Shown piece by piece: positions 39,566 to 53,986 of a DNA stretch of 53,986 bases. The position numbers and the translations under genes were made by a program. Every line of letters starts with the position of its first letter. Positions within the stretch are counted from its first letter, which is position 1. Source of the DNA: a virus; the IMG/VR virus record IMGVR_UViG_3300042311_001046, positions 1 to 53,986 of that record. One strand, 5' to 3'. The notes under the pieces were generated by a model. That model saw only the letters and a list, made by a program, of their open reading frames with translations. It ran no database searches and had not been told where the DNA came from.

Positions 39566-39817
39566 ATGGAAACAAACGCAGATTTACAAAAAGAATTGGA
39601 ACAAAAATTAGAAGAATTAACACCAAAAGGAGCTCTTTTTGAATCAATAACTTACTATAACGAAGAACAATTAAATTTGTTTTTGTCTAATATGACACAA
39701 GAACAGGCAATTTACTGTTTAGTTGAGGCGGTTAAAATTGCATACAGAAGAGGTTCATATAGTTTAGAGGAGTCTGAAGCAATCTCAAAATCTCTAAGGG
39801 TGATTGGTGGTCAATAA
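39566..39817 (+). CDS. Hypothetical 83-residue protein
   Basis: The protein is not recognised. It is helical and acidic, with YNEEQLNLFLSNMTQEQAIY and SYSLEESEAISKSLRVIGG suggesting a small four-helix fold. It is a single-gene unit divergent from the basic protein gene and ends immediately in a strong two-way terminator shared with the capsid gene. Similar small proteins often sit beside capsid genes in T4-like phages of Bacteroidota, but the function is unknown. Confidence 0.65.
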   Translation: METNADLQKELEQKLEELTPKGALFESITYYNEEQLNLFLSNMTQEQAIYCLVEAVKIAYRRGSYSLEESEAISKSLRVIGGQ

Positions 39818-39861: not shown

Positions 39862-41706
39862 TTATCTCAATTCATTCAAATCAAATGTACGTACACCGTC
39901 AACGATGATACGTCCGAAGAAACGGTTGTTAACCATTTTCTTAGCGTAACGAGTCATAATACCCTTGATAGGTGTAAAGTTGAATGGGTTGTACATAGTT
40001 GGAGTTAATTGAAGTGGTACATATGGTGCGTAGATGTAACCAGTGTCAAGAAGTGACGTACCTTTGTGACCCAACAACACAGTGTTTGGTGGGAAGTAAG
40101 GGTCACGATACACTTGGTAACGACCTGCTAATGTACCTACTCTTTCAATACCCATGTTATACTGGTCTTGCTCAGCAGCTGCGTTAGAAACGTGGAAATA
40201 TTGAAGGTCATCAAAAATTGCTGAGATTTCAGATGATACAACAATCCAGTTTGCTCCACCTCTCAACGTAGATTTGTGAATCTGTGCAGAGATTTGGTTG
40301 ATTGCGGTGATAAGAGTTTGGTTCCAGTCCTTCTGAGTGTAAGGAGTAGATTGGTTGTTCAGACGCTTCCAACCGTTGTAATCCCAACGAAGTGTCCAAG
40401 CCGCACCTTTACGAAGGTCACGGAGGATTTCACGGTCGATTTCAGCTGCCACTTGTTCAGACAATAAAGCCGTTAATTCAGCCTCAGCGTCGATGTTGTG
40501 GAATGCCGCAACGTCTTGTGCAAGTTCTGGTGACCACTGTGCTCTCAACTTTCTTTCAGTTACAGAAACTGTTACTGACTCAAGGTCGAAAGAAACTTCA
40601 CCAATCTTGTCTTCGAATTCAAGTTCCTTATATCTCTTAAAATAAGCAATAAATGGGTTACTAGCTGAGGAACCAGATACTGCAGATTCGAAAGTTGTAC
40701 CTGAGTATCCATCAGGAGTTGATTGACCACAAGCAATACAAGCTGGAACTTGTAAGTCTACTTCCAAATAGATTATACCATTTGGTGTACAAATATCAAA
40801 ATATGTACCACCGTTACCACCACCTGTGTTTGTACCAGGATAAGAAGCTGTTGAGTATGAACCATACTGAACAATGCTCTTAGCATATTTCTGTGTTACA
40901 ACACGGAACAAAAGAGGTGCAGTTGTTGAGAAAGTTACACCACCAATAGTTCCTTGTGATGGAAGAATTGTAAGGTCTGAAAGGAATGCCTCAGTATCCA
41001 TTTCTTGTCCGTCAGGACCGATAAGTTTACCAGCACCTGAGTTAGAGAAACCTGACAATGCAATTAAAATTTTACGATATTCGCCAGCAGGGTAACCTGA
41101 AAGTATTAAATTACCGCTACTCCAAATAACTGTGTTTGTAATTGCCGACAACCAAGTGAATGCACCCTTAGAGTAGTCGAACAAACCTGGAGGATTTAAA
41201 CCTGGCTCGTTACCTTCATAAAATGCATCATAAAGGTTCTTAGAGAATGCATTTGCATTTGGTGGATAACCATCACCGATAGCGGTTTGGTTACTACCAG
41301 GTGCTCCAAATGGAGCGTAGTGGTCATTATCATTACCTTGAGCAATAGCAACTGGAGTATTTCCAGTATAACCTTGAATGCGCGGTACAAAGTAGAACAA
41401 CTTACCGATAGGAAGGTTCATAGCTTGTACTGATACGATTTCATTAGCTAAAAGTTTAGAGAATACACGACGAATGATTGGGAATACGACAGTTTCAAAT
41501 GAACCTGAATCTGCAGTAGACGCCGCTTCGTTAATTAAGAATGAAGCTTGGTTTTCATATAACTGAGCTACGTTCTCTTTTAGGTGACCACGAAGGCCTT
41601 CAAGGAACCCTAATTTGTCCCATTTGTTGATAGTATCTTCCTTGATAACTTTAAGGTGCTTAAGACCTATGTTACCAACGAGACCTGATTCTAATAATGC
41701 TCCCAT
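39862..41706 (-). CDS. 23: Major capsid protein, gp23-like
   Basis: The 614-residue protein matches T4 gp23. Its N-terminus contains TINKWDKLGFLEGLRGH and ENVAQLYENQ, and the C-terminal half keeps long collinear blocks such as RKLRAQWSPELAQDVAAFHN, EVAAEIDREILRDLR-type helices and PVRYQVYRDPYF-like lines. A prohead protease site of the T4 type (Ile/Leu-x-Glu) is visible as INE after residue 58, so cleavage after E60 would remove the N-terminal helix. It is about 90 residues longer than T4 gp23; extra Gly/Ser/Cys-rich sequence near residues 290-350 may be an insertion domain. The leader is very A-rich, with no Shine-Dalgarno sequence and no TATTTAT box. Confidence 0.95.
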   Translation of the reverse strand: MGALLESGLVGNIGLKHLKVIKEDTINKWDKLGFLEGLRGHLKENVAQLYENQASFLINEAASTADSGSFETVVFPIIRRVFSKLLANEIVSVQAMNLPIGKLFYFVPRIQGYTGNTPVAIAQGNDNDHYAPFGAPGSNQTAIGDGYPPNANAFSKNLYDAFYEGNEPGLNPPGLFDYSKGAFTWLSAITNTVIWSSGNLILSGYPAGEYRKILIALSGFSNSGAGKLIGPDGQEMDTEAFLSDLTILPSQGTIGGVTFSTTAPLLFRVVTQKYAKSIVQYGSYSTASYPGTNTGGGNGGTYFDICTPNGIIYLEVDLQVPACIACGQSTPDGYSGTTFESAVSGSSASNPFIAYFKRYKELEFEDKIGEVSFDLESVTVSVTERKLRAQWSPELAQDVAAFHNIDAEAELTALLSEQVAAEIDREILRDLRKGAAWTLRWDYNGWKRLNNQSTPYTQKDWNQTLITAINQISAQIHKSTLRGGANWIVVSSEISAIFDDLQYFHVSNAAAEQDQYNMGIERVGTLAGRYQVYRDPYFPPNTVLLGHKGTSLLDTGYIYAPYVPLQLTPTMYNPFNFTPIKGIMTRYAKKMVNNRFFGRIIVDGVRTFDLNELR

Positions 41707-41734: not shown

Positions 41735-43207
41735 TTATTTTGCAATTTTACTCATGATGTCTTTCATTCTAAGGAACTGAGGATTCTCATATGTCTTAGA
41801 TTCAATCAAGTTAATTGCGGAACCTGATTGTGGCTCACGGTCAATTACTCTTTCAATTGATTCTGTAATTGGTGTCGCTTTTGTGCCTTGTGAAAGTTCA
41901 TCTTTAATTGTTTTATATAATGCCTTTGATTCCTTGAGAGTTTCAGCAGAGTCAAATCTTCTAAGAATGTTAATTTTTTCATGTTTAGAAGTTGAGTGTT
42001 CAGTGAAAAGTCTTGTAGCATAAGCCAAATTTGAATTAAAGATTGCTACCTCATTTAATTTATCTCTAAATAAATTAAGTGCCTTTCTGTATTCTTCATT
42101 TTTGGTTCTCAACATTTGTAATTCTTCCATAACTTCAACACTTTCAGCAACGTTTTTGCCGTATTCGTAGTTTCTGTTAGGAGTAATTCCTTTTCTTAAA
42201 CCTCTACCTGATTTTGAACCCATTCCATAAGTGCGTGATGCTTCTTTAGCTTCTCCTTTAGAAAATTTCTTGGTCTTGCTTGGCATTTCCATTACTTCTC
42301 CCTCTTTGAATTCAAACTTAGGTCCTTTACCTAGTCCAACAGTTTTACCTTGTTTTTTCTTTTCGTTGAAACCGCCTTTTGATTTCTCATAAGAAAAAGT
42401 AGGTTTACCTGTTTTACCTTTAGAGCCGACTTTTGGTTTCATACCCTCTTTGGTTTCCATTTTCTTAGCTTTTTTAGCTTCCATCATTGGTTTGTAACTT
42501 TCATTGTCTTCAGCATCCTCATATGAACCTTCTTCGAGTTCGAATTCGTATTCTTCCTCTTCAAGTTCATCAGCAGGAGTGTCATCGATTTCAATTTCGT
42601 ACATAACCTCTTCTTTTTCTTCTTCTGGTTGATATGATGCGTCTTCATACATTTCTTCTTCCATCGCCTGATAACCTTCTTCCGTTTCATCATCTTCTTC
42701 CTCTTCCTCTTCACCTTCCATTTGTAAAAGGTATTCGGCTTCAGTTTCGTCATCAGAAATTTTAGTGTAGTCACCATCAGGAACTACGGTTACAGTGTCA
42801 GAATTTTTCATGTTTTTGAAAACTTTAAAAACTTCTTCGAAGTCCTCTTCACCTGTAAGGTCAGCGACTGGCTCGTCATCCATGTCCATCATATCAGACA
42901 TTTCATCGTCCATGCCCATCATACCAGGCATTTCGTCGTCTTCCTCTTCGTATTCTTCGTCCTCTTCAGATTCCTCTTCTTCAGATTCCTCTTCGTCTTC
43001 GAATTCTACTTCGGTTTCAAGCTCATCTTCTTCAGCTTCTTTCATTTCAACCTCTTCGTCAGTCTCTTCTTTCATAGACTCTTTTACTAGTTCGCTAATT
43101 TCTTCCTTCATTGTCGAAGCAAGTATTTCTTTTGCGTTTTCATTAATTACTTCTTCCAAATTCTGTATTTGGAGAAGTGTTTCGTTAACTAAATTTTTTT
43201 CAGCCAT
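41735..43207 (-). CDS. Prohead core/scaffold protein, gp22-like position
   Basis: This 490-residue protein is extremely acidic in residues 45-260, with long Glu/Asp runs and Met clusters (MPGMMGMDDEMSDMMDMDDE). A basic Gly/Lys-rich stretch follows (about 270-350, SYEKSKGGFNEKKKQGK). A helical C-terminus carries LRTKNEEYRKALNLFRDKL and LYKTIKDELSQ, the part that resembles prohead scaffold helices. It lies directly upstream of the capsid gene, as gene 22 does in T4. It should form the inner scaffold of the prohead and be degraded by the S77 protease. A TATTTAT box lies 14 nt before the start. Confidence 0.8.
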   Translation of the reverse strand: MAEKNLVNETLLQIQNLEEVINENAKEILASTMKEEISELVKESMKEETDEEVEMKEAEEDELETEVEFEDEEESEEEESEEDEEYEEEDDEMPGMMGMDDEMSDMMDMDDEPVADLTGEEDFEEVFKVFKNMKNSDTVTVVPDGDYTKISDDETEAEYLLQMEGEEEEEEDDETEEGYQAMEEEMYEDASYQPEEEKEEVMYEIEIDDTPADELEEEEYEFELEEGSYEDAEDNESYKPMMEAKKAKKMETKEGMKPKVGSKGKTGKPTFSYEKSKGGFNEKKKQGKTVGLGKGPKFEFKEGEVMEMPSKTKKFSKGEAKEASRTYGMGSKSGRGLRKGITPNRNYEYGKNVAESVEVMEELQMLRTKNEEYRKALNLFRDKLNEVAIFNSNLAYATRLFTEHSTSKHEKINILRRFDSAETLKESKALYKTIKDELSQGTKATPITESIERVIDREPQSGSAINLIESKTYENPQFLRMKDIMSKIAK

Positions 43208-43535: not shown

Positions 43536-44255
43536 TTATTTTGATAAATAATCGGTGAGTTTTTTCATTAAATCAAGTGAGCTACCCATTTCTCTTTGTT
43601 GTTTTAATTCTTTTTCCTCTTGTAAGTTTTCTTCATACTTGTATCTGTCTTTTTCGTCCTTAAAAAGGTACGCGCCAGGTGTTGATGGAGAAGAAACAAG
43701 GTCAAAACAAATTAGTTCAAAATCTTCTTGGACTTCATTCTGTTCTCCTCTTTTTGCAAGTGACCCAACTCCTCTTGAGGATATACCAAGAGTAACACCT
43801 TGTCTTAAAAGATTTGCGGCTTGGTCTCCTTTAGTTGAAACTATCCCTCTCTCGTGAAATCCTGGAGAAGTTAATAATCTAAGTTTACCAAGAAGAACAT
43901 TTTTGTCCCACCACATATCAGTTATAATGTGTGATACTCTATCGAGGTCAATTAAGGATGATTCAGGGTGATTAAGTTCAGATAATGAGGTTCCTCTCTT
44001 AATATAGTTTTTAGTGTAATTGTCGGCTTCTCTTCTTAATATTTTCTCAGGATATATTCTACCGTTTCTATTTGGGGTATCGTACTTTTGTAGTACGGCA
44101 TAAAATTCAAATGGCTTAGAGTGGTCTGTAGTATTAAAATTTTCTTTTATTACTCTATCATTAGAGAATTCAGTAGGTGATACATAACCTGCATCATACT
44201 CGATAAGAATTCCTCTACCTGACTCTGTCGGTCCTAAAATTCGTAAGTTTTGCAT
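43536..44255 (-). CDS. 21: Prohead core protease, gp21-like (peptidase S77)
   Basis: This 239-residue protein matches the T4 gp21 family of serine proteases that mature the prohead. Catalytic-region lines are LSELNHPESS with H96 and VTLGISSRGVGSL with S159/S160; LDRVSHIITDMWW and FDLVSSPSTPGAYLF are further family hallmarks. It would cleave capsid and core proteins after Ile/Leu-x-Glu sequences, and a matching site is present in the capsid N-terminus. Its order relative to portal and capsid follows T4 (20-21-22-23). A TATTTAT box lies 14 nt upstream. Confidence 0.9.
   Translation of the reverse strand: MQNLRILGPTESGRGILIEYDAGYVSPTEFSNDRVIKENFNTTDHSKPFEFYAVLQKYDTPNRNGRIYPEKILRREADNYTKNYIKRGTSLSELNHPESSLIDLDRVSHIITDMWWDKNVLLGKLRLLTSPGFHERGIVSTKGDQAANLLRQGVTLGISSRGVGSLAKRGEQNEVQEDFELICFDLVSSPSTPGAYLFKDEKDRYKYEENLQEEKELKQQREMGSSLDLMKKLTDYLSK
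43544..43550 (-). promoter_or_regulatory. TATTTAT box upstream of DUF4494-like gene
   Basis: The coding strand reads GATTATTTATCAAAATAATT, with the box ending 13 nt before the ATG at 43530. It sits inside the 3' end of the protease gene. Confidence 0.45.
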
Positions 44256-44276: not shown

Positions 44277-44732
44277 TTAAACTACAACCAAATTTTTTTC
44301 TTTGTCATTTTTTGTTAAATGAAAATCGAATAATTCAGATTGTTGGAATATATCTTTTTCTACATAAGATATAATTCTTTTTATCTCATTCTTTAATTTA
44401 ATTGATTTAAAATCAATTTCCGTTTTAATGTAAAAGGTCATTTCCAAATTCATAAAAGACCTTTTTCCTAATGTTATCCCACTTGTCCTTAAATCTAAAT
44501 CAACAATGAATTTACTGTGAAAAATAAATTTATCTGATATCTCTAAAAGAAGTTGTTTAATTAACCTATTCAAACAGGATACCTCTCTACCCCAATTTTC
44601 TAAAGATTTTTTTGGCTCTACCCAAGACTGTATGTTTATGTATATTGACTTTAAATTTTTTGAATCTACCGTTCCATAAGAAGTTTTAAAATTTTTATAT
44701 CCCTTCAGCACACAAGATTTCCCTTTTTTCAT
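44277..44732 (-). CDS. Hypothetical protein in head operon
   Basis: This 151-residue protein is not recognised. It is mixed alpha/beta with a basic N-terminus (MKKGKSCVLKGYKNF), a central helix (SCLNRLIKQLLLEISDKF) and strands in KFIVDLDLRTSGITLGKRSF. It lies between the portal and protease genes, where T4 carries the small core genes 67 and 68, so a prohead-core or head-completion role is possible by position only. Upstream lies the divergent bS21 gene, and an exact TATAAATA is on this strand at 44755-44762. Confidence 0.6.
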   Translation of the reverse strand: MKKGKSCVLKGYKNFKTSYGTVDSKNLKSIYINIQSWVEPKKSLENWGREVSCLNRLIKQLLLEISDKFIFHSKFIVDLDLRTSGITLGKRSFMNLEMTFYIKTEIDFKSIKLKNEIKRIISYVEKDIFQQSELFDFHLTKNDKEKNLVVV

Positions 44733-44754: not shown

Positions 44755-44762
44755 TATTTATA
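44755..44762. promoter_or_regulatory. Bidirectional late-promoter-like element (TATTTATA / TATAAATA)
   Basis: The plus strand reads TATTTATA, 34 nt before the bS21 ATG. The minus strand reads TATAAATA, an exact match to the T4 late consensus, 22 nt before the ATG of the 151-residue gene. It lies in the divergent 64-nt gap and may serve either or both genes. Confidence 0.4.
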
Positions 44763-44796
44763 TATTAAATTTAATAAAAAAAAACCAATAGTCAAA

Positions 44797-44982
44797 ATGT
44801 TAATTATTGAAGTTAAAAAGGGTAATGTTGAGGGTGCTCTTAAACAATTTAAATCTAAAGCAATTAAAACAAAACTTGTTTCACAATTACAAGATAGAAA
44901 AACATACAAAAAAAAATCTGACGTAAAACGTCAGATTAAGAAAGATGCAATTTACAAACAAAAGAAATACTCAGACAATTAA
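44797..44982 (+). CDS. rpsU: Ribosomal protein bS21 homologue
   Basis: The 61-residue protein matches bS21, particularly the Bacteroidota form. It begins MLIIEVKKGNVEGALKQFKS, continues AIKTKLVSQLQDRKTYKKKS and ends with a basic helix (DVKRQIKKDAIYKQKKY). In bacteria bS21 sits on the small-subunit platform near the anti-Shine-Dalgarno end of 16S rRNA. Phage-encoded bS21 is known from several large phages and is thought to swap into host ribosomes late in infection. Here it is the only plus-strand gene within the head operon, lies divergent from the 151-residue gene and overlaps the 235-residue gene tail-to-tail by 12 nt. It has an A-rich leader without a Shine-Dalgarno sequence. Confidence 0.88.
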   Translation: MLIIEVKKGNVEGALKQFKSKAIKTKLVSQLQDRKTYKKKSDVKRQIKKDAIYKQKKYSDN

Positions 44983-45678
44983 ACCTTTGTGTAATTGTTC
45001 GAGTTTGATAAATTCTTTTTTATCAAATTTTGTTGATTGTATTTTATTCTTTGTTTCAAGTAAAGTTTGTTTAATTTCTTCATCTGATTCTGAAATTAGT
45101 TTTTCTAATTTTTGAATTGTCGATTCTTTAATTGTCTCAAACTCTTCTTTTGTTGGTTTCTTTTTCAAAGAAGAGATTACCTCTTCTCTATCAGATTCGT
45201 TAAGTTCAGATAGAGTCTTTTCAATATTGTTATTTGCAATTTTCAACATTGTACTTATCGGAACTACTTTTTTAGATTCCTTTATGGTTGGTTTTTTCAT
45301 AAGGGATTCTACAATATTCTTTTTAGCCATTGATTTTCTCTCAGGGTGTAATTCATTACCGTAAAATAAATCATCAATTGTAGTGTAGTTATTTTCTTTA
45401 ATTATACCTTTTGTCCACTTCAAAATTTTATTTGTAAAATTCTCAGTAAGTTCAATTGACTTAACCTCTTTTGATAAATCATCCACCATATATTCGGCAA
45501 TTTCTTTATCCAAAGATTTATTTTCTTTTAATGTATCATAAATAAAATATAGTCTTTTAAAAGATTTATTCTCCAATAGTTCGTTCTTGAAGAATTTCAT
45601 ATCCTTGTCTAATTTTTTGTCGACAAATGATTTAACTAATTTATTCTCTACTAAAGTTTTAATTATACCGAATTTCAT
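44971..45678 (-). CDS. Helical protein between portal and protease
   Basis: This 235-residue protein is not recognised. It is Lys/Glu-rich and almost all helix (FFKNELLENKSFKRLYFIYD, ELISESDEEIKQTLLETK-like segments), with conserved-looking middle lines such as DLFYGNELHPERKSMAKKNI. It follows the portal gene at the place of T4 genes 67/68, which encode small prohead-core components; the placement suggests a similar role but no sequence match can be claimed. A TATTTAT box lies 15 nt before its start. Confidence 0.65.
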   Translation of the reverse strand: MKFGIIKTLVENKLVKSFVDKKLDKDMKFFKNELLENKSFKRLYFIYDTLKENKSLDKEIAEYMVDDLSKEVKSIELTENFTNKILKWTKGIIKENNYTTIDDLFYGNELHPERKSMAKKNIVESLMKKPTIKESKKVVPISTMLKIANNNIEKTLSELNESDREEVISSLKKKPTKEEFETIKESTIQKLEKLISESDEEIKQTLLETKNKIQSTKFDKKEFIKLEQLHKGLIV

Positions 45679-45700: not shown

Positions 45701-47524
45701 TCAATCTTTTAGTAAGCTGTTTAGTTTTTGTTCCATTTCACCTAAAGATTTTTTTGCTTTAGATAAATCAATCATTTCATTGTCTCCAAACATATTACTC
45801 TCAAGTAGGATATTCATATCTCTTTCTAACGACTCTGGAGTTACTCCGGCCTCACCTCCTGGTTCGGGACCAGGTGCTGGAGGTGCTGGCAATTCACCAG
45901 GTGGTTCAGACATCATTCCTCCTCCACCTTCCTCAGGAGGTGCTCCTCCTTCTGTAGGAGTACCAGCAGGTTCACCTTCCTTCTTACCATATAGTTTATC
46001 CAAATTATCAAATAATCCTGTATGAGTAATAACCTCAGCAGTTTTCTTGAGTTCTTCACCAACCGCTTTTTCAATACGCTGTTGTTGTAGGTCAAGTTTA
46101 ATTTCTTCATCAGAAAATCCTAAAATATGTTTCTTAGCCCAAGACTGAGAAACTGCAGCAATTCCTGAACCAGGGTCTGCAACCATATCTTTATATAGTA
46201 AAACCTTTTCTTTCCAAACGTCGATTCGTAAAAGGTCAGCTTGAGTAGATGGATTAGTTAGAGACAAAGTAAAGTTTCCAACCTCTTCTTCGAATCCTAA
46301 TACAAACAAGTGAATGATTGCAATTTTATTCAATTCTTGAATCATATTCTTTTGAATACGATTTATAGTTCTTGCAAAACGAATATCTTGTAGGGATAAA
46401 TTTTTTCCGTCTCCTACAGTCTCCTCAAATCCAAGAAATGCTTTCGGCACACGTAATGCCGTTAAAAGTTTCTTTTGTATATATTCAATATCAGCAATTT
46501 CTGATAGGTTTTGAGCACCTGCAAGAGTTTCAATAGGAGAGGCTTGAGCTGGGTCACGAACAGGGACAAAATAATCTTGGTCAACAGCCATTTGATTAAA
46601 TCTCATGTCCACATTTCCTGTTTTATGGTCAACAACTTGGTCTCTCTTGAATTTGTTTGCAAATCTTTGGATATATGGCTCAACATCAGCGTCATCCATA
46701 TTTCCAACAAATACTTTAAATATTCTTCTCTCAGGTGCTCTTGATGTTCTATAAATTAACATCGCATCTTCAGACAGTAAAAGTTGTTTCCAAATACGTC
46801 TTGCCTTTTCAAGCATAGATGTACCGTAAGGAAGTCTTCTATCGTCTCCAAGTAATCTAAAGTGAGCAATTTCCCAAGTATTAAATTCAAGGTCTTTTTG
46901 TTTCCACTTAAACTTTGTATGTTTTTTTGTTGGATTAGTTTCAGGTTCGGCAGATTTACCCCCCATTCCTGCTTCCAATCTTTCAATTTCAACAATTGGA
47001 AGTTGCATACATCCTATAATTCCTTTTTCGGGGTCAAGTTTAAGAAACACAAAATTATCACCGTACTTGCAAGTGTTTCTTGTCCACATTGGAAGGTTGG
47101 TATTAATATCTAAACTATTATTGAATAGGTCTGCAAGTATTGATTTAATTCTTCTTGATTCAGAATAAATCTGAAGCATAAATCCATCTTGATTAATAGT
47201 TGTAGATTCTTCAGCGTATATATCTAAAGCTGCTCCAATTTCAGGAGTAAACTCCATAGATTCATAATCATAAAATGAAGATAATCTTGTTGGTTCGTAA
47301 TATGTTGCTTGAGTATATAGATTATGCTCAATCTTTGACCACTGATTTGCAAGATAATAATTTTGTTGAGCCTGTAGTTTTTCTCTATTATACTCTTGTT
47401 TTGAGGTTGTACGGAGAAGTTCTTTTTTATCGTACTTGTATGTAGGGTAATCTTGACCTAAAAGTGAATTAGGACCAAACGCTTGGGATAACCTTTGCCA
47501 TACTGTTAACTTGTTATTTTCCAT
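45701..47524 (-). CDS. 20: Portal protein, gp20-like
   Basis: This 607-residue protein matches T4-type portal proteins. Family lines are SFYDYESMEFTPEIGAALDI, YAEESTTINQDG, IAHFRLLGDDRRLPYGTSML, EKARRIWKQLLLSEDAMLIY and TALRVPKAFLGFEETVGDGK with SLQDIRFARTI after it. The portal ring sits at one capsid vertex, nucleates prohead assembly and is the channel for DNA packaging by the terminase. The C-terminal ~100 residues include a Pro/Gly/Glu-rich linker (GGAPPEEGGGGMMSEPPGE) and a final helix. A TATTTAT box lies 30 nt upstream. Confidence 0.93.
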   Translation of the reverse strand: MENNKLTVWQRLSQAFGPNSLLGQDYPTYKYDKKELLRTTSKQEYNREKLQAQQNYYLANQWSKIEHNLYTQATYYEPTRLSSFYDYESMEFTPEIGAALDIYAEESTTINQDGFMLQIYSESRRIKSILADLFNNSLDINTNLPMWTRNTCKYGDNFVFLKLDPEKGIIGCMQLPIVEIERLEAGMGGKSAEPETNPTKKHTKFKWKQKDLEFNTWEIAHFRLLGDDRRLPYGTSMLEKARRIWKQLLLSEDAMLIYRTSRAPERRIFKVFVGNMDDADVEPYIQRFANKFKRDQVVDHKTGNVDMRFNQMAVDQDYFVPVRDPAQASPIETLAGAQNLSEIADIEYIQKKLLTALRVPKAFLGFEETVGDGKNLSLQDIRFARTINRIQKNMIQELNKIAIIHLFVLGFEEEVGNFTLSLTNPSTQADLLRIDVWKEKVLLYKDMVADPGSGIAAVSQSWAKKHILGFSDEEIKLDLQQQRIEKAVGEELKKTAEVITHTGLFDNLDKLYGKKEGEPAGTPTEGGAPPEEGGGGMMSEPPGELPAPPAPGPEPGGEAGVTPESLERDMNILLESNMFGDNEMIDLSKAKKSLGEMEQKLNSLLKD

Positions 47525-47580: not shown

Positions 47581-50500
47581 TTAAGCAGTAGTTACGGTCC
47601 AGTTATATGGAGCTGCAATCAAAATATTTCTACAAAATGTTCCACTATTTGTCGTTATAGCTTGCCCTGTAGCCGCTGCGGAGCCAATATTTCCGTTTGT
47701 TCTATTATAACTAAAAGTATTTGCACCCGGCCCTGCATTTATTGTATATGTACCATCAAAAATGGCATCAACACCACTAACAACTACAGTTTGTCCTGCT
47801 AAGAAATTATGTGCAACTGAAGTTGTTAATGTTGCAACGTTAGCGTTTAATACTTTGTTAGTAATAGATATAAATCCGCTAGGAGCTGAGTTAAGAGCTG
47901 CCGTGGGAGTCGCAATAGTATTATTTATTGATATTGTTCCAGCGGTTCTAGGGTTCACTCCAAAATTGCCGACCACACTGTCTTTTATGCTACAAATAAT
48001 TAAATCAACGCCAGTTCGAGATATACCACAATTTTGTAAATTTAGTGTTCTTAAATTAGTTGCTGTTATAAAAGACTTATTCCAATTAGAAAAGAAAAAA
48101 TTGTTGGCGTTCGTAACGTCATTTGTCGTCCCATGAGTGCTTGAAAGATTCAAAGTTCTTAGACTTGATGGCCAGTTTCCAGAACAAACCGCATCTGCTC
48201 CTCCTCCGACTGACGCATACGTGCTTGCCGCAGTTACATTTGCCGGCCCATTGTTAGCGGCTATTATATTATAAGTAAAACTAGTTGTAGTAGGGGTTGA
48301 TATAATGGTATAAGTTCCATTATATGTTCCATTTTGATTAATAAACACTGAAACTTGTTGACCGGCAGTAAAATTGTGTGCAGTTGTTGCAGTTAGAGTC
48401 GCAACATTAGATAATATTTGTACTCTTTGTATTTGTACAAAGAGCCCACCAAACTGATTTTGGAGCGAGGTTATTGTTTCTATATTTGAGTGGGTTGAAA
48501 GATTTAAAAATCTATTGAAAACTCTGCTGGTTCCTGCCGTCTGTCTTTGGTTGGTTAAAGTTTTAAGAGCTGGAAACAAACTAAAATCAAAAACAGATAC
48601 TACATTACTACTGATAGTTAATGATGTCATCCCAAGTCCTTGAACATTAATTTGGGTTAATGAGCTGTTACTTGAAACATCTAAAGTGTGCAAAGAATTA
48701 GGAAAATTATTTGTAAAAATAGTAATTGGATTTGTACGAAATTGATTAACAGCACTTCGTTGTAGATAAAGTTCTCTAATATTTGTTGGTAATAAATTAT
48801 TGTTGAATGGTCCTGAAAGTCCATTTCCATCGAACTCAATATATTCTGTACTATTTGGGAAAATTGGAAACGTTGTCAGAGCATTATCCGACAATATCAC
48901 ACGTCTTAATTGTGAACAATTTATAATTTGTGAAGTAAATTGGCTTAAATTTACATTACTCTCTACGTTAAGTTCCCTTAGTTCTGAATCTATTGGAATA
49001 GTTGGATTAAAATTAGTTATTCTATTTCTAGCACCTGACCCGGGTCCTTCTGTGGTGTTATCGAGGTTCAAAATTCTAAGTGATTTAGGTAGGGTTACGT
49101 CAAAGACTCTAAGGGCCGAATTAGATAGATTTAAACCTGTTAAACTTGTTAAATTTAATGGATTTAAAATTGAAAACGTAAATCCTGCCGGTTGATTAGG
49201 TCCAGAGGCGAGGGTTAAATTAAAATCTCTAAGAGACGACGGCCCATTTAATGTTACGCTCTGAAAATTTGGTTGGAGGGTGCTTGTACTACTATTGTTA
49301 GTGTAGGATATTGTTATTGCGGTTAATGAGGTAAATGTTGACAAATTAGGTTGGAAAACTTGAATTGGTATATTTGTCATTTTAATTGACTTTAAAAGAG
49401 AACCATCAGATGGGTTAAAGTTCAAAAATGGTGTAAAAATACCATCCGCCGTTGAATTTATCATTTCAAGCTCATCAAACGCCCCTAAACTTATGTTAAA
49501 ATTTGTTAAACGTGATGAACTGATTGTCATTTTAGTTGTGTTAGGAAAACTAGATTGTTGGAAAATTAAAGGTCCTCCTATACTTGAAATTCTTGTGAAC
49601 TGCACTTCACCTAAAGCCCCAAAATTTGAAACGTTACTTAATTTTGCAACAAAGGAATTGTTTGCATAAGTTTTAGGAAAATTTGTTCCTGTCCCGGTAG
49701 CATCCCAAGTTGCAGATTGATTAGTACCATCCCCCCAATCGAGTGTACCCGTTGATGACCCTCCAATGGTCCTTAAATTAAAGACTAAAGGATTGGTGCC
49801 AGGTATGTTTCCAATTTCCAAAACTGGATTCGGTGTTTGTGATGGGGTTTGAGTCACAGTCGGAGTTTGTGTTTGTGTTGGTGTGGGACCAGGTATTGGA
49901 CCGCAGTATGAAAGTTCAGTGACATTACAAGAACCGTCTAAGGTTGATAGGGTCCATCTTATAAACCATGCACCTGAAGTTGGCGTTGGTAATTGTGTTG
50001 GGTCTGTGTAATTAACCAAACCAGTTCTACTACCTGGATTTGGACAACTACATCCATTACCCTGACTATTGTTAAACCACCTTCTTTGATTCAACACCGC
50101 CCCACTAAATGAAACAGGGTCATAAGGTAATGGATAAGATAATCCAAGAACGGCACCATTAATGGGGTCAATATAAGCACCATTAACAATGTCATTATTA
50201 TATCGAGAACAAGCCTGTGCTGCGCTTGACAACCCTGCGGCATTCGTTATGAATCCTCCTGGTGCATTTGCTAGGTAAGCGGCCTCAGAAACCCATAGAT
50301 TTTGAGCAATTCTAACTGATTGTACTGTTGGTTTCACACAACAATCTAAACTTTGTGTAATTACACAGTTTACTATTCTTATTAAAGTTGCAGTTCGAGC
50401 GTTATTATCAAGATTTACCCAATAAAATCCATTTGGTATGTTACACAAACAACTAGTTCCTGTATTATTATATACTCGTGTATTAATCTCAAGAGACCCA

Positions 50501-52602
50501 CCTGAAGTTCGGAAATTAAATCCTTGAGTTGCACATACTAAACTAGTATCATACCTTGACAAGAAATAAGTTTCTAATTCAGAACAGGCCGTTGCGGTTG
50601 TAAAATTCACTGTTGCAGGTGAACCACATCCCGCTCCACTATTATAAGTGTAAGCGGATACCCCATTGATTGACACCAACCCACTAGGAGCGGCACATGA
50701 AGGTGTGTTAGTTTGTGTTGGAGTTTGAGATTGGGTATTTGAAGGAGTTTGAGTGTTTGTTTGAGTTTGAGTTGGTGTAACACCATCTATAGTTGGTGTA
50801 TTAGTATTAGTATTTGTTGGTGTATTTGTTGGTGTTGGTGTAAGGGTTGGAGTTTGTGTTTGTGTTGGTGGTGGAGGTGGGGCGGCACAGAAGTATATAT
50901 CAACTATTTCACAGTTTAATACTGTAATTATATTAATACCTTCTGTTTTATTGACATCATTGTTATAGTCAATAGCGTTAACCCAATATCTACCATTTTC
51001 TAAATTACAAAGACAAGAAGTGTTTGCGGTATTATATACTTTTGCACCAATACTAAAAGCGGTAACTTGAATTGCTAATCCAACGTTTGCTGGTGAAATA
51101 TTATTAACGTATTCCTCGGTATAATTAGCGCATCCTTCATTATTATCGAGTCCAGTAATAATCCACAGGATACCTTGTCCAACGCTGGGGCCTGTCCAAT
51201 ATCTTTCTACGACAGCAATTTGTATTAGACCGCCTGGTTTAGCACAAGTCTTTGTTGGCGTTTGAGTTGTGGTATTTGTAGGAGTCGCGGTATTTGTAGG
51301 AGTCGCGGTATTTGTAGGAGTTACAGTATTTGTTGGTGTTTCAGTTATGGTCGCAGAAGGAGTTACAGTATTTGTTGGTGTTTCAGTTATGGTCGCAGAA
51401 GGGGTTGCAGTATTTGTTGGACTTATTGAAGGGGTAGGAGTTATAGTTGGACTTTGTGTCGGAGTAGAAGTATTTGTTGCCGTATTTGTTGGGGTTTGTG
51501 TCTTTGTTGCCGTGTTAGATGGTGTATTTGTAGGTGTAGAAGTATTTGTTTGAGTTGGTGTTTGAGTAAATGGGGGACATCCTGGTAAATCAGCACAGAA
51601 TCCCAAAGGGGATGCAATTAATATATTTGCATCAGTAGATGAGACCGATTGGGCACAAAGGTAAGTAAATCCAGGCGGTGCTAATTCAAAAGGATAAAAA
51701 ATCGCATTACAATCCCTTTTTACATAAGGGACATTTCCACCAGATGTATTATTTAATTCCCAACAATAGCAAGGACCAGGTGTTCCTGTATTAGTCTGAG
51801 TATTTGTTGTAGTATTTGTAGGAGTTACAGTATTTGTCGGAGTTTGAGTAGGAGTTTTTGTATTTGTCGGAGTTTGAGTTGGTGTTCTTGTAGTGGTCGG
51901 AGTTTGAGTTTGAGTTCTGGTATTAGTTTGAGTTTGAGTTCTTGTTGGAGTATTTGTTCTTGTAGGAGTTTGGGTTCTAGTTGATGTTTTAGTAGTTGTG
52001 GGGGTCTGAGTATTAGTTGGGGTATTTGTTCTTGTAGGGGTTGGAGTTTTAGTTTGAGTTCTTGTTTGTGTTGATGTTCTTGTATTAGTGGGGGTTTGAG
52101 TTCTAGTGACAGTGTTAGTAGGAGTTTGTGTTGGAGTTGTAGTGTTAGTAGGAGTTTGTGTTGGGGTTGACGTACTTGTTCGAGTTGGAGTTTTAGTAGG
52201 AGTTGGAGTTTTAGTTTGAGTTCTAGTAGGAGTTGGAGTTTTAGTTTGAGTTCTAGTATTAGTAGGAGTTTTAGTTTGAGTTCTAGTATTAGTAGGAGTT
52301 TTAGTTTGAGTTCTAGTATTAGTAGGAGTTGGAGTTGGTGTTTTGGTATTTGTAGGCGTATTAGTATTAGTAGGAGTATTAGTGGGCGTCTCAGCAATTG
52401 TCGGAGTGTTAGTGGGTGTTGTAAAAGGGGTAGGAGTGTTAGTTGGAGTGGGTGGTGGGATGGACGCAACACCAGGTGCAGGGGCAATTTTAAAAATCGT
52501 GACAATAGCCTTTAAGAAGGTTTTTATACCGTTATTAATTACATTGATTTTCGAACCGTCGAATAATCTGCCCGCTCTTTGTGGTCTGTTTTGTAAACCC
52601 AT
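47581..52602 (-). CDS. Giant Thr-Pro/leucine-rich-repeat adhesin
   Basis: This 1673-residue protein starts at the ATG at 52602, overlapping the terminase stop (TAATG). A ~45-residue N-terminal anchor leads to a long Thr-Pro tract (about 50-271), a Cys module (CYCWELNNTSGG), a second tract (338-451), and three related Cys-rich domains (about 452-571, 635-755 and 755-901) sharing YNNTGTSCLCN-like and GxYWVN lines. A PKD-like WGDGT segment (about 953) precedes a leucine-rich-repeat region (about 960-1385) and two copies of a beta module containing NVATLT and AHNFxAGQ. There is no enzyme motif. The modular build implies receptor binding or surface attachment. T4 has tail sheath and tube genes at this place between terminase and portal. 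Confidence 0.8.
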   Translation of the reverse strand: MGLQNRPQRAGRLFDGSKINVINNGIKTFLKAIVTIFKIAPAPGVASIPPPTPTNTPTPFTTPTNTPTIAETPTNTPTNTNTPTNTKTPTPTPTNTRTQTKTPTNTRTQTKTPTNTRTQTKTPTPTRTQTKTPTPTKTPTRTSTSTPTQTPTNTTTPTQTPTNTVTRTQTPTNTRTSTQTRTQTKTPTPTRTNTPTNTQTPTTTKTSTRTQTPTRTNTPTRTQTQTNTRTQTQTPTTTRTPTQTPTNTKTPTQTPTNTVTPTNTTTNTQTNTGTPGPCYCWELNNTSGGNVPYVKRDCNAIFYPFELAPPGFTYLCAQSVSSTDANILIASPLGFCADLPGCPPFTQTPTQTNTSTPTNTPSNTATKTQTPTNTATNTSTPTQSPTITPTPSISPTNTATPSATITETPTNTVTPSATITETPTNTVTPTNTATPTNTATPTNTTTQTPTKTCAKPGGLIQIAVVERYWTGPSVGQGILWIITGLDNNEGCANYTEEYVNNISPANVGLAIQVTAFSIGAKVYNTANTSCLCNLENGRYWVNAIDYNNDVNKTEGINIITVLNCEIVDIYFCAAPPPPPTQTQTPTLTPTPTNTPTNTNTNTPTIDGVTPTQTQTNTQTPSNTQSQTPTQTNTPSCAAPSGLVSINGVSAYTYNSGAGCGSPATVNFTTATACSELETYFLSRYDTSLVCATQGFNFRTSGGSLEINTRVYNNTGTSCLCNIPNGFYWVNLDNNARTATLIRIVNCVITQSLDCCVKPTVQSVRIAQNLWVSEAAYLANAPGGFITNAAGLSSAAQACSRYNNDIVNGAYIDPINGAVLGLSYPLPYDPVSFSGAVLNQRRWFNNSQGNGCSCPNPGSRTGLVNYTDPTQLPTPTSGAWFIRWTLSTLDGSCNVTELSYCGPIPGPTPTQTQTPTVTQTPSQTPNPVLEIGNIPGTNPLVFNLRTIGGSSTGTLDWGDGTNQSATWDATGTGTNFPKTYANNSFVAKLSNVSNFGALGEVQFTRISSIGGPLIFQQSSFPNTTKMTISSSRLTNFNISLGAFDELEMINSTADGIFTPFLNFNPSDGSLLKSIKMTNIPIQVFQPNLSTFTSLTAITISYTNNSSTSTLQPNFQSVTLNGPSSLRDFNLTLASGPNQPAGFTFSILNPLNLTSLTGLNLSNSALRVFDVTLPKSLRILNLDNTTEGPGSGARNRITNFNPTIPIDSELRELNVESNVNLSQFTSQIINCSQLRRVILSDNALTTFPIFPNSTEYIEFDGNGLSGPFNNNLLPTNIRELYLQRSAVNQFRTNPITIFTNNFPNSLHTLDVSSNSSLTQINVQGLGMTSLTISSNVVSVFDFSLFPALKTLTNQRQTAGTSRVFNRFLNLSTHSNIETITSLQNQFGGLFVQIQRVQILSNVATLTATTAHNFTAGQQVSVFINQNGTYNGTYTIISTPTTTSFTYNIIAANNGPANVTAASTYASVGGGADAVCSGNWPSSLRTLNLSSTHGTTNDVTNANNFFFSNWNKSFITATNLRTLNLQNCGISRTGVDLIICSIKDSVVGNFGVNPRTAGTISINNTIATPTAALNSAPSGFISITNKVLNANVATLTTSVAHNFLAGQTVVVSGVDAIFDGTYTINAGPGANTFSYNRTNGNIGSAAATGQAITTNSGTFCRNILIAAPYNWTVTTA
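51271..51403. repeat. 18-bp and 42-bp tandem repeats in adhesin linker
   Basis: GGTATTTGTAGGAGTCGC occurs at 51271-51288 and 51289-51306, with a partial third copy. A 42-bp unit occurs at 51320-51361 and 51362-51403, differing only in the last base. They encode Thr-Pro linker and can change length by slippage or recombination. Confidence 0.9.
52211..52330. repeat. 30-bp tandem repeats in adhesin linker
   Basis: Three perfect 30-bp copies lie at 52241-52270, 52271-52300 and 52301-52330, preceded by a near copy at 52211-52240. They encode the repeated NTRTQTKTPT unit of the first Thr-Pro tract. Confidence 0.95.
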
Positions 52603-53986
52603 TATCTATTTCCTCCGAATAACCAATTATAGTTCATATAATCATTTTTTGTAGGCTGATTATTAACTTGTTTTACATCAGATATTGTCGGATTAAAATA
52701 ATCTGAATGACTTCTTGTATTTGTGTTAACTTGCCAAGATTCTAACATTGCTTTTGTATGTTGTGTTACTTTTGATATTGATGTAAATGAAGATTCTGAA
52801 ACATAAGTACACATTGATACTGACATAATTAAGTCATCGTGATGTCCTTTTTGGTGGTCGGGTCTTCCATTAATATATATAAAGGTTCCCATTTCATTTA
52901 ATAATCTTGATGAATAAATTTTAAATCCGTGCCTTAAATGCTCCTCAAAAGAGGCAATAATCTGAACTCTTTTATTATTGAAGTTAATTCCAGGTATTTT
53001 ATCTTGAGTTTTTGGGTCATATTTCCACTTATTAAAATGGTCTACACCATCAACATATAAATCTTTATATCCAAGTTCTTGTAGTTTCCTTGCGGTTGTT
53101 ACACCCATTCCTCCTGTTATATCAATAACTATAAACGCTGAGTACATATTTCCCCATTTGTAACAAATTTCAGCTAAAGTATCTGGTGGCATTTTTCCAA
53201 CATATTCAAATACTTGTTCCCTTTCATCAAAGTCAATAATCTGAATTGATGAAAAGTCCTCAGAATCCCCACGACTAACATCGACCCCCATTATATATTT
53301 GTGTCCTATTACAGGTTCTTTCCATATCCATATTGAACCTCCCATCATTTTGTTTGATGGTTCCTTAATCATATTCTCTCTATAGTTTTGGAGCATTTCA
53401 GCATCAAATACGTTGTCACCAGACCCAAGGAATTTACACTCTAATTCTTGGTTAACTTTTCTTCTGTCGTACTTGAGTTTTTTAACCATCGACTCATACC
53501 AAGAAGAGGTAGGTTTATATCCTTTAGAAATTAAATCTTTAACATCTTCAAAATTTCTTTCTTTAAATGGAATCATTGAATAGTCGACAGATTCCACTTC
53601 AGGATATTCATCTCTATTTAAATAAAAATGTATTACATCATTAACTTTAATAAGAGATAAATCTTTAGCATATCTTGGGTCTTTAAACCACACCATCTCT
53701 GAAACCTTAAACTCATTCATATTACGAAGAGCTTGGTCATAGATTTCATAATAAATTGGGTCAAATCCGTTTGGAGTTGAAATTACTATTACTTTACCTC
53801 CTGTTGAGAGGGACGCCATACAAGCTGCCCAAAAGTCAGAATCGGCTTCGATATATGCCGCCTCGTCAAATATTAATATGGTTGGGGTATAACCTCTGAG
53901 AGCGTCCTTAGATGTTGCAACGGCTTTAACTTCACATCCATTATTTAATTTAAAGTGTCTTTGTGAGTTTTTCTCAGCGGAAAATC
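52602..53986 (-). CDS. terL: Terminase large subunit, gp17-like (N-terminus beyond window)
   Basis: 460 residues of the C-terminal part are visible; the frame stays open to the window edge, so the N-terminal ATPase start is missing. Walker B is ILIFDEAAYIEADSD, followed by the coupling segment VIVISTPNGFDPIYYEIYDQ. The nuclease domain shows GHKYIMGVDVSRGDSEDFSS, VIDITGGMGVTTARKLQELG and GHHDDLIMSVSMCTY, the three acidic motifs of the RNase H-like terminase nuclease. It packages and cuts concatemeric DNA at the portal. Its TAA overlaps the adhesin ATG. A GGAGG lies 11 nt before that ATG but is explained by the GGN codons. Confidence 0.95.
   Translation of the reverse strand, partial: FSAEKNSQRHFKLNNGCEVKAVATSKDALRGYTPTILIFDEAAYIEADSDFWAACMASLSTGGKVIVISTPNGFDPIYYEIYDQALRNMNEFKVSEMVWFKDPRYAKDLSLIKVNDVIHFYLNRDEYPEVESVDYSMIPFKERNFEDVKDLISKGYKPTSSWYESMVKKLKYDRRKVNQELECKFLGSGDNVFDAEMLQNYRENMIKEPSNKMMGGSIWIWKEPVIGHKYIMGVDVSRGDSEDFSSIQIIDFDEREQVFEYVGKMPPDTLAEICYKWGNMYSAFIVIDITGGMGVTTARKLQELGYKDLYVDGVDHFNKWKYDPKTQDKIPGINFNNKRVQIIASFEEHLRHGFKIYSSRLLNEMGTFIYINGRPDHQKGHHDDLIMSVSMCTYVSESSFTSISKVTQHTKAMLESWQVNTNTRSHSDYFNPTISDVKQVNNQPTKNDYMNYNWLFGGNR

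Follow-up and report, generated by a model that had tools for sequence, protein, structure and literature searches.

The window, a 53,986-base linear IMG/VR record analysed over its full length, carries a gene for a Bacteroidota-type ribosomal protein bS21 (positions 44797..44982, plus strand; 61 amino acids with an ATG start) within the head-gene cluster of a T4-like jumbo myovirus. The joint reading that this gene encodes a working bS21, and that its late supply or replacement of the host protein would sustain initiation without Shine-Dalgarno (SD) sequences, outside the SD-based control of the host, is given about an even chance, with ribosome binding, late timing and displacement of host bS21 presumed.

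The identity of the product, proposed in a preliminary description from the letters alone, stood up in an HMM search that passed both curated cut-offs, namely Pfam Ribosomal_S21 (PF01165; 41.2 bits against a cut-off of 27, E = 1.4e-10; residues 4–55 aligned to positions 2–54 of the 55-position profile) and the NCBIfam S21p equivalog TIGR00030 (38.2 bits against a cut-off of 28.95). A further match was obtained to phrog_21469, ‘ribosomal protein S21’ (E = 3.8e-6). The likeness to the Bacteroidota form held as well, as the protein is closest to Bacteroidota bS21 and its top two PDB sequence matches were 9i5v (E = 1.6e-6) and 7jil (E = 1.4e-5), the latter being the Flavobacterium johnsoniae ribosome. 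An AlphaFold2 model contained helices at residues 11–26, 29–32 and 40–60 (pLDDT 81, pTM only 0.37), and a Foldseek search with this model returned small-subunit ribosome entries, but at E-values of about 0.8–7. The gene is kept in 41 viral loci, and the dN/dS values between the window and ten relatives (0.05–0.19) indicate that the protein is under purifying selection.

The window is a new fragment of a bS21-encoding Bacteroidetes jumbo phage group already in print. Of the 51 window genes tested, 38 have a match in a single viral contig of 293,850 bp, almost all of them in order, and this relative encodes at the same place a bS21 that is 72% identical. The published group comprises 47 bS21-encoding genomes of Bacteroidetes jumbo myoviruses, the complete ones measuring 293–331 kb, with several tRNAs (Chen et al. 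2022, PMC9723584); the window is a 54-kb fragment in which no tRNA genes were found, and tRNAs are known from the 293,850-bp relative (n = 25). An ARAGORN tmRNA call in the same relative (L155, 9741-10133, minus strand; tag GNVINKLQTIGLIRTEEVSVA) may be false. As in the window, the bS21 of the published phages (clades a–e) lies on the strand opposite to the terminase (TerL), portal, protease and major capsid protein (MCP) genes, is flanked by two uncharacterized genes, and combines a conserved aromatic residue 54 with divergent residues in the N-terminal helix; these genomes are likewise AT-rich with PhoH, dUTPase and sugar genes. The published phage bS21 is strongly transcribed, late and with the structural genes, and was hypothesised to take the place of host bS21 (Chen et al. 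2022). The bS21 type and the SD-less leaders of the window agree with a Bacteroidota host.

Read leftwards on the minus strand, the cluster is of the T4 type and consists of the portal protein (T4 gp20 family; 45701..47524), P0003 (235 amino acids; 44971..45678), P0002 (151 amino acids, uncharacterized but conserved; 44277..44732), the prohead protease (T4 gp21 family, Peptidase_S77; 43536..44255), a 490-amino acid protein in what its position suggests is the scaffold (gp22) place (41735..43207), and the MCP (T4 gp23 family; 39862..41706). The portal, protease and MCP were assigned by family matches, the 490-amino acid protein matched no Pfam, PHROG or NCBIfam profile, and weak matches point to a probable large terminase at 52602..53819 (minus strand). 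The bS21 gene lies inside this cluster on the opposite strand, as first described, with P0003 convergent on one side, the two 3′ ends overlapping by 12 nt, and P0002 divergent on the other. In terms of the T4 gene order, P0003 and P0002 occupy the positions of T4 genes 67 and 68, respectively. Either of the two may be the gene that Chen et al. 2022 call ‘bS21_CN’. That bS21 is the only plus-strand gene among the head genes is correct from the portal to the MCP, but not beyond, since a conserved plus-strand ORF lies just past the MCP gene (39566-39817, 83 amino acids). This small ORF, which adjoins the MCP gene, had no family match and is 59% identical to its counterpart at the same place in the 293,850-bp relative. 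At the other end, a 1673-amino acid ORF without a Pfam or NCBIfam match spans the region from the portal to the probable terminase (47581-52602, minus strand) and has 28% identity over 440 residues in the 293,850-bp relative, where the surrounding genes are 83–88% identical.

P0002 is highly conserved (40 invariant columns among 32 diverse members) and was found in 208 viral stretches; among the best 80 of these, bS21 was located divergently upstream of P0002 in 72. Of the other eight, one (L199) is cut off at this point; in the remaining seven, the same two genes enclose an empty site, which contains a hairpin-like, terminator-like repeat and a TTGACA-type box. No bS21 was found elsewhere on the larger bS21-less contigs (309, 208, 178 and 152 kb), which may be incomplete. 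In a tree of P0002 and the protease, the bS21-less loci fell in two separate places among the carriers, one as sister to carriers with 98% support. Because of these two placements and the single clade formed by phage bS21, two losses are the simplest reading of the sequences, and repeated gain is possible. The existence of two lineages without bS21 between intact flanks indicates that the gene is dispensable and that late translation can do without it. A role for P0002 as a partner of bS21 was rejected, as P0002 persists in phages without bS21 and its AlphaFold2 model (pLDDT 87) had as its single viral fold match an uncharacterized myovirus protein (A0A8S5L9A5, TM 0.75); a head-core role, judged by position, is likelier.

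The location could also be explained if the small, basic bS21 acted outside the ribosome, packed in the head, bound to phage RNA or DNA, or working with the neighbouring head proteins. Chen et al. 2022 suggested possible packaging in the virion, and the site among the prohead-core genes is fixed across two deep phage groups. Such a role is nevertheless considered very improbable, as relatives with the same core genes have no bS21, bS21 has no head-core homology, and features that serve ribosome contact, Tyr54 among them, have been conserved.

A FastTree phylogeny of bS21 was built with 49 distinct phage sequences from the two groups and 127 host sequences, a comparison put forward in the preliminary description. 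The phage sequences formed one clade apart from the hosts, though in a weak tree of about 60 residues (SH-like support of 0.77, or 0.97 with megaphage bS21 added). At about residues 21–28, Flavobacteriales hosts have a nearly invariant KRKFDKTGT and the phages mostly K[SG]KVIKTK[QL], in agreement with the divergent phage positions reported by Chen et al. 2022 (Arg21, Phe23, Asp25 and Thr28) in the mRNA-facing part of bS21. This phage-specific segment may help the phage protein to compete with host bS21, or may adjust the entry of mRNA. Position 54 is aromatic in all 49 distinct phage sequences (Tyr in 46, Phe in 3) and Tyr in all 71 distinct Flavobacteriales sequences; the window protein has Tyr here, matching F. 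johnsoniae Tyr54, the residue that covers the anti-SD. With this tyrosine kept, phage bS21 should preserve, not change, the SD-blind mode of initiation.

SD pairing was scored (in kcal/mol) between the 25 nt before each start codon and the F. johnsoniae 16S tail (ACCUCCUUUCU, A1534-U1544). The window bS21 leader (44772..44796, plus strand) has no SD, with a best duplex of +1.0 kcal/mol, and of 34 distinct leaders of phage bS21, drawn from both groups of phages, none fell below −3.7 kcal/mol. All 80 Flavobacteriales rpsU leaders, picked by similarity to F. johnsoniae bS21 and not an even sample, carried an extended SD (−16 to −17.7 kcal/mol). At the pairing energy of the extended SD of autoregulated rpsU (below −13 kcal/mol), no such element was present in the window bS21 leader or in the 34 distinct phage leaders. 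The contrast holds for the Flavobacteriales and not for the whole phylum, as among 34 wider Bacteroidota with tyrosine-type bS21 the host rpsU leader was at or below −13 kcal/mol in 19 and above −6 kcal/mol in 12. It was not reported in the literature found, a search that covered few subscription journals and no preprints. In F. johnsoniae, autoregulation of rpsU works through its extended SD, which is read by ribosomes without bS21; ribosomes lacking bS21 or its C-terminus initiate inefficiently on mRNA that has no SD, and more efficiently on rpsU (McNutt et al. 2023, PMC9976891). Without the extended SD, the phage gene therefore appears to stand outside the host rpsU autoregulation loop, an escape that applies only if the host is a member of the Flavobacteriales, because many other host rpsU genes lack a strong SD.

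The genes of the window nearly all lack SD sequences, as first described; only 4 of 49 leaders reached −6 kcal/mol, no more than shuffled leaders. The same test applied to 120 kb of a Flavobacterium genome likewise gave SD-less, A-rich leaders, and against these no distinct class of phage leader that a phage-bS21 ribosome could favour was seen. SD-less leaders are thus what the likely hosts ordinarily have, and the missing SD is no evidence for selective translation. These results bear on the proposal of specialised ribosomes, made by Chen et al. 2022 and in the preliminary description, in which phage bS21 replaces the host protein and its altered N-terminal part favours phage mRNAs. The single phage clade, with common substitutions at positions 21–28 where hosts are nearly invariant, and the placement of these substitutions at the mRNA-facing part speak for this proposal, but the phage leaders form no class apart from those of Flavobacterium, the anti-SD-covering tyrosine is kept, and the gene cluster is the same in phages that lack bS21; overall it is rather doubtful. 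Selective translation of phage mRNA through the 21–28 segment is possible, but beyond that change a bias of initiation toward phage leaders, as had been put forward, finds no support in the sequence.

Upstream of the window gene lies a promoter-like TATTTAT motif (44755..44761, plus strand; 42 nt before the start); each of the 15 distinct leaders in the window’s own bS21 group has it between −42 and −46. In the 293,850-bp relative, 89 of 204 genes had TATTTAT in the sense orientation within the 60 nt upstream of the start, and 26 had it in the antisense orientation (200 shuffles: mean, 15.5; maximum, 28), mostly 8–15 or 20–27 nt before the start codon. In the window, the motif also precedes the portal, P0003, the protease and two genes between the protease and the MCP, and may act as a promoter element of the phage. 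Its spacing would fit a possible promoter giving very short leaders or none. A second, conserved motif beside the bS21 start, GTCAAA, was rejected as a translation signal, as it is found further upstream in the second phage group; it is more simply read as TTTGAC on the other strand, a candidate −33/−35 box for the divergent P0002.

Under the reading given even chances, it is plausible that the phage protein replaces host bS21 late in infection, and this would proceed as follows. A phage promoter would drive late synthesis of phage bS21, which would bind host 30S subunits that had lost or never received bS21, or displace the host protein. It would cover the anti-SD as host bS21 does, keeping the 30S complete for SD-less initiation during the mass production of capsid proteins, and ribosomes refilled in this manner would switch off host rpsU. 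As the phage leader has no extended SD, synthesis of phage bS21 should not depend on ribosomes that lack bS21. A stronger version, in which unregulated phage bS21 breaks host autoregulation, being made by any ribosome, filling every 30S and repressing rpsU, with the 21–28 segment giving phage-specific behaviour late in infection, is considered unlikely. Binding to a foreign ribosome has a precedent in the bS21 of Pelagibacter phage HTVC008M, which is also from a large myovirus and enters E. coli 70S ribosomes, though those ribosomes were almost inactive, at ~5% of wild type (Mizuno et al. 2019, PMC6375957), so that incorporation need not sustain translation. The same loss of activity speaks for a rival reading in which phage bS21 makes ribosomes poor at host messages or counters a host defence that acts on translation, rather than supporting phage translation, and the countering of a translation-stalling defence was mentioned by Chen et al. 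2022. Shut-off or anti-defence of this kind is judged quite unlikely, given the published late expression alongside the structural genes, when translation is needed, and a conserved residue pattern that suggests normal 30S binding.

Flavobacteriales rpsU encodes a bS21 that shares Tyr54 with the phage, but has an extended SD with SD-based autoregulation and the KRKFDKTG segment; the phage gene lacks both the SD and this segment. Several Bacteroidota genomes (G126, G045, G148, G206 and others) possess two or three bS21 genes. HTVC008M bS21 is of the Proteobacterial type (37% identity with the window protein across 51 residues), and the bS21 gene of the related Pelagibacter phage Mosig (L301), unlike the window group, has a strong SD (−17.6 kcal/mol), and no head genes are annotated immediately beside it. 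Megaphages of 634–735 kb (LR756501-LR756504 and LR745206, all unannotated records) encode a bS21 that is 47–49% identical to that of the window; the protein of the 735-kb phage (L299, LR756501) groups with the present phage clade, yet its gene has a strong SD (−12.1 kcal/mol).

The basic discovery of bS21 in these phages was published in 2022; the present analysis goes beyond it in the SD-less phage leaders, the promoter-like TATTTAT motif before bS21 and the head genes, the close relatives, nested among carriers, in which the site is empty, and a second, deeper group of carriers. Phages that encode ribosomal proteins are a test of the idea that viruses build specialised ribosomes. The difference in SD between the phage gene and host rpsU makes the autoregulation prediction testable in Flavobacterium johnsoniae, and the relatives with an empty site between unchanged flanks are naturally bS21-less phages for comparison.
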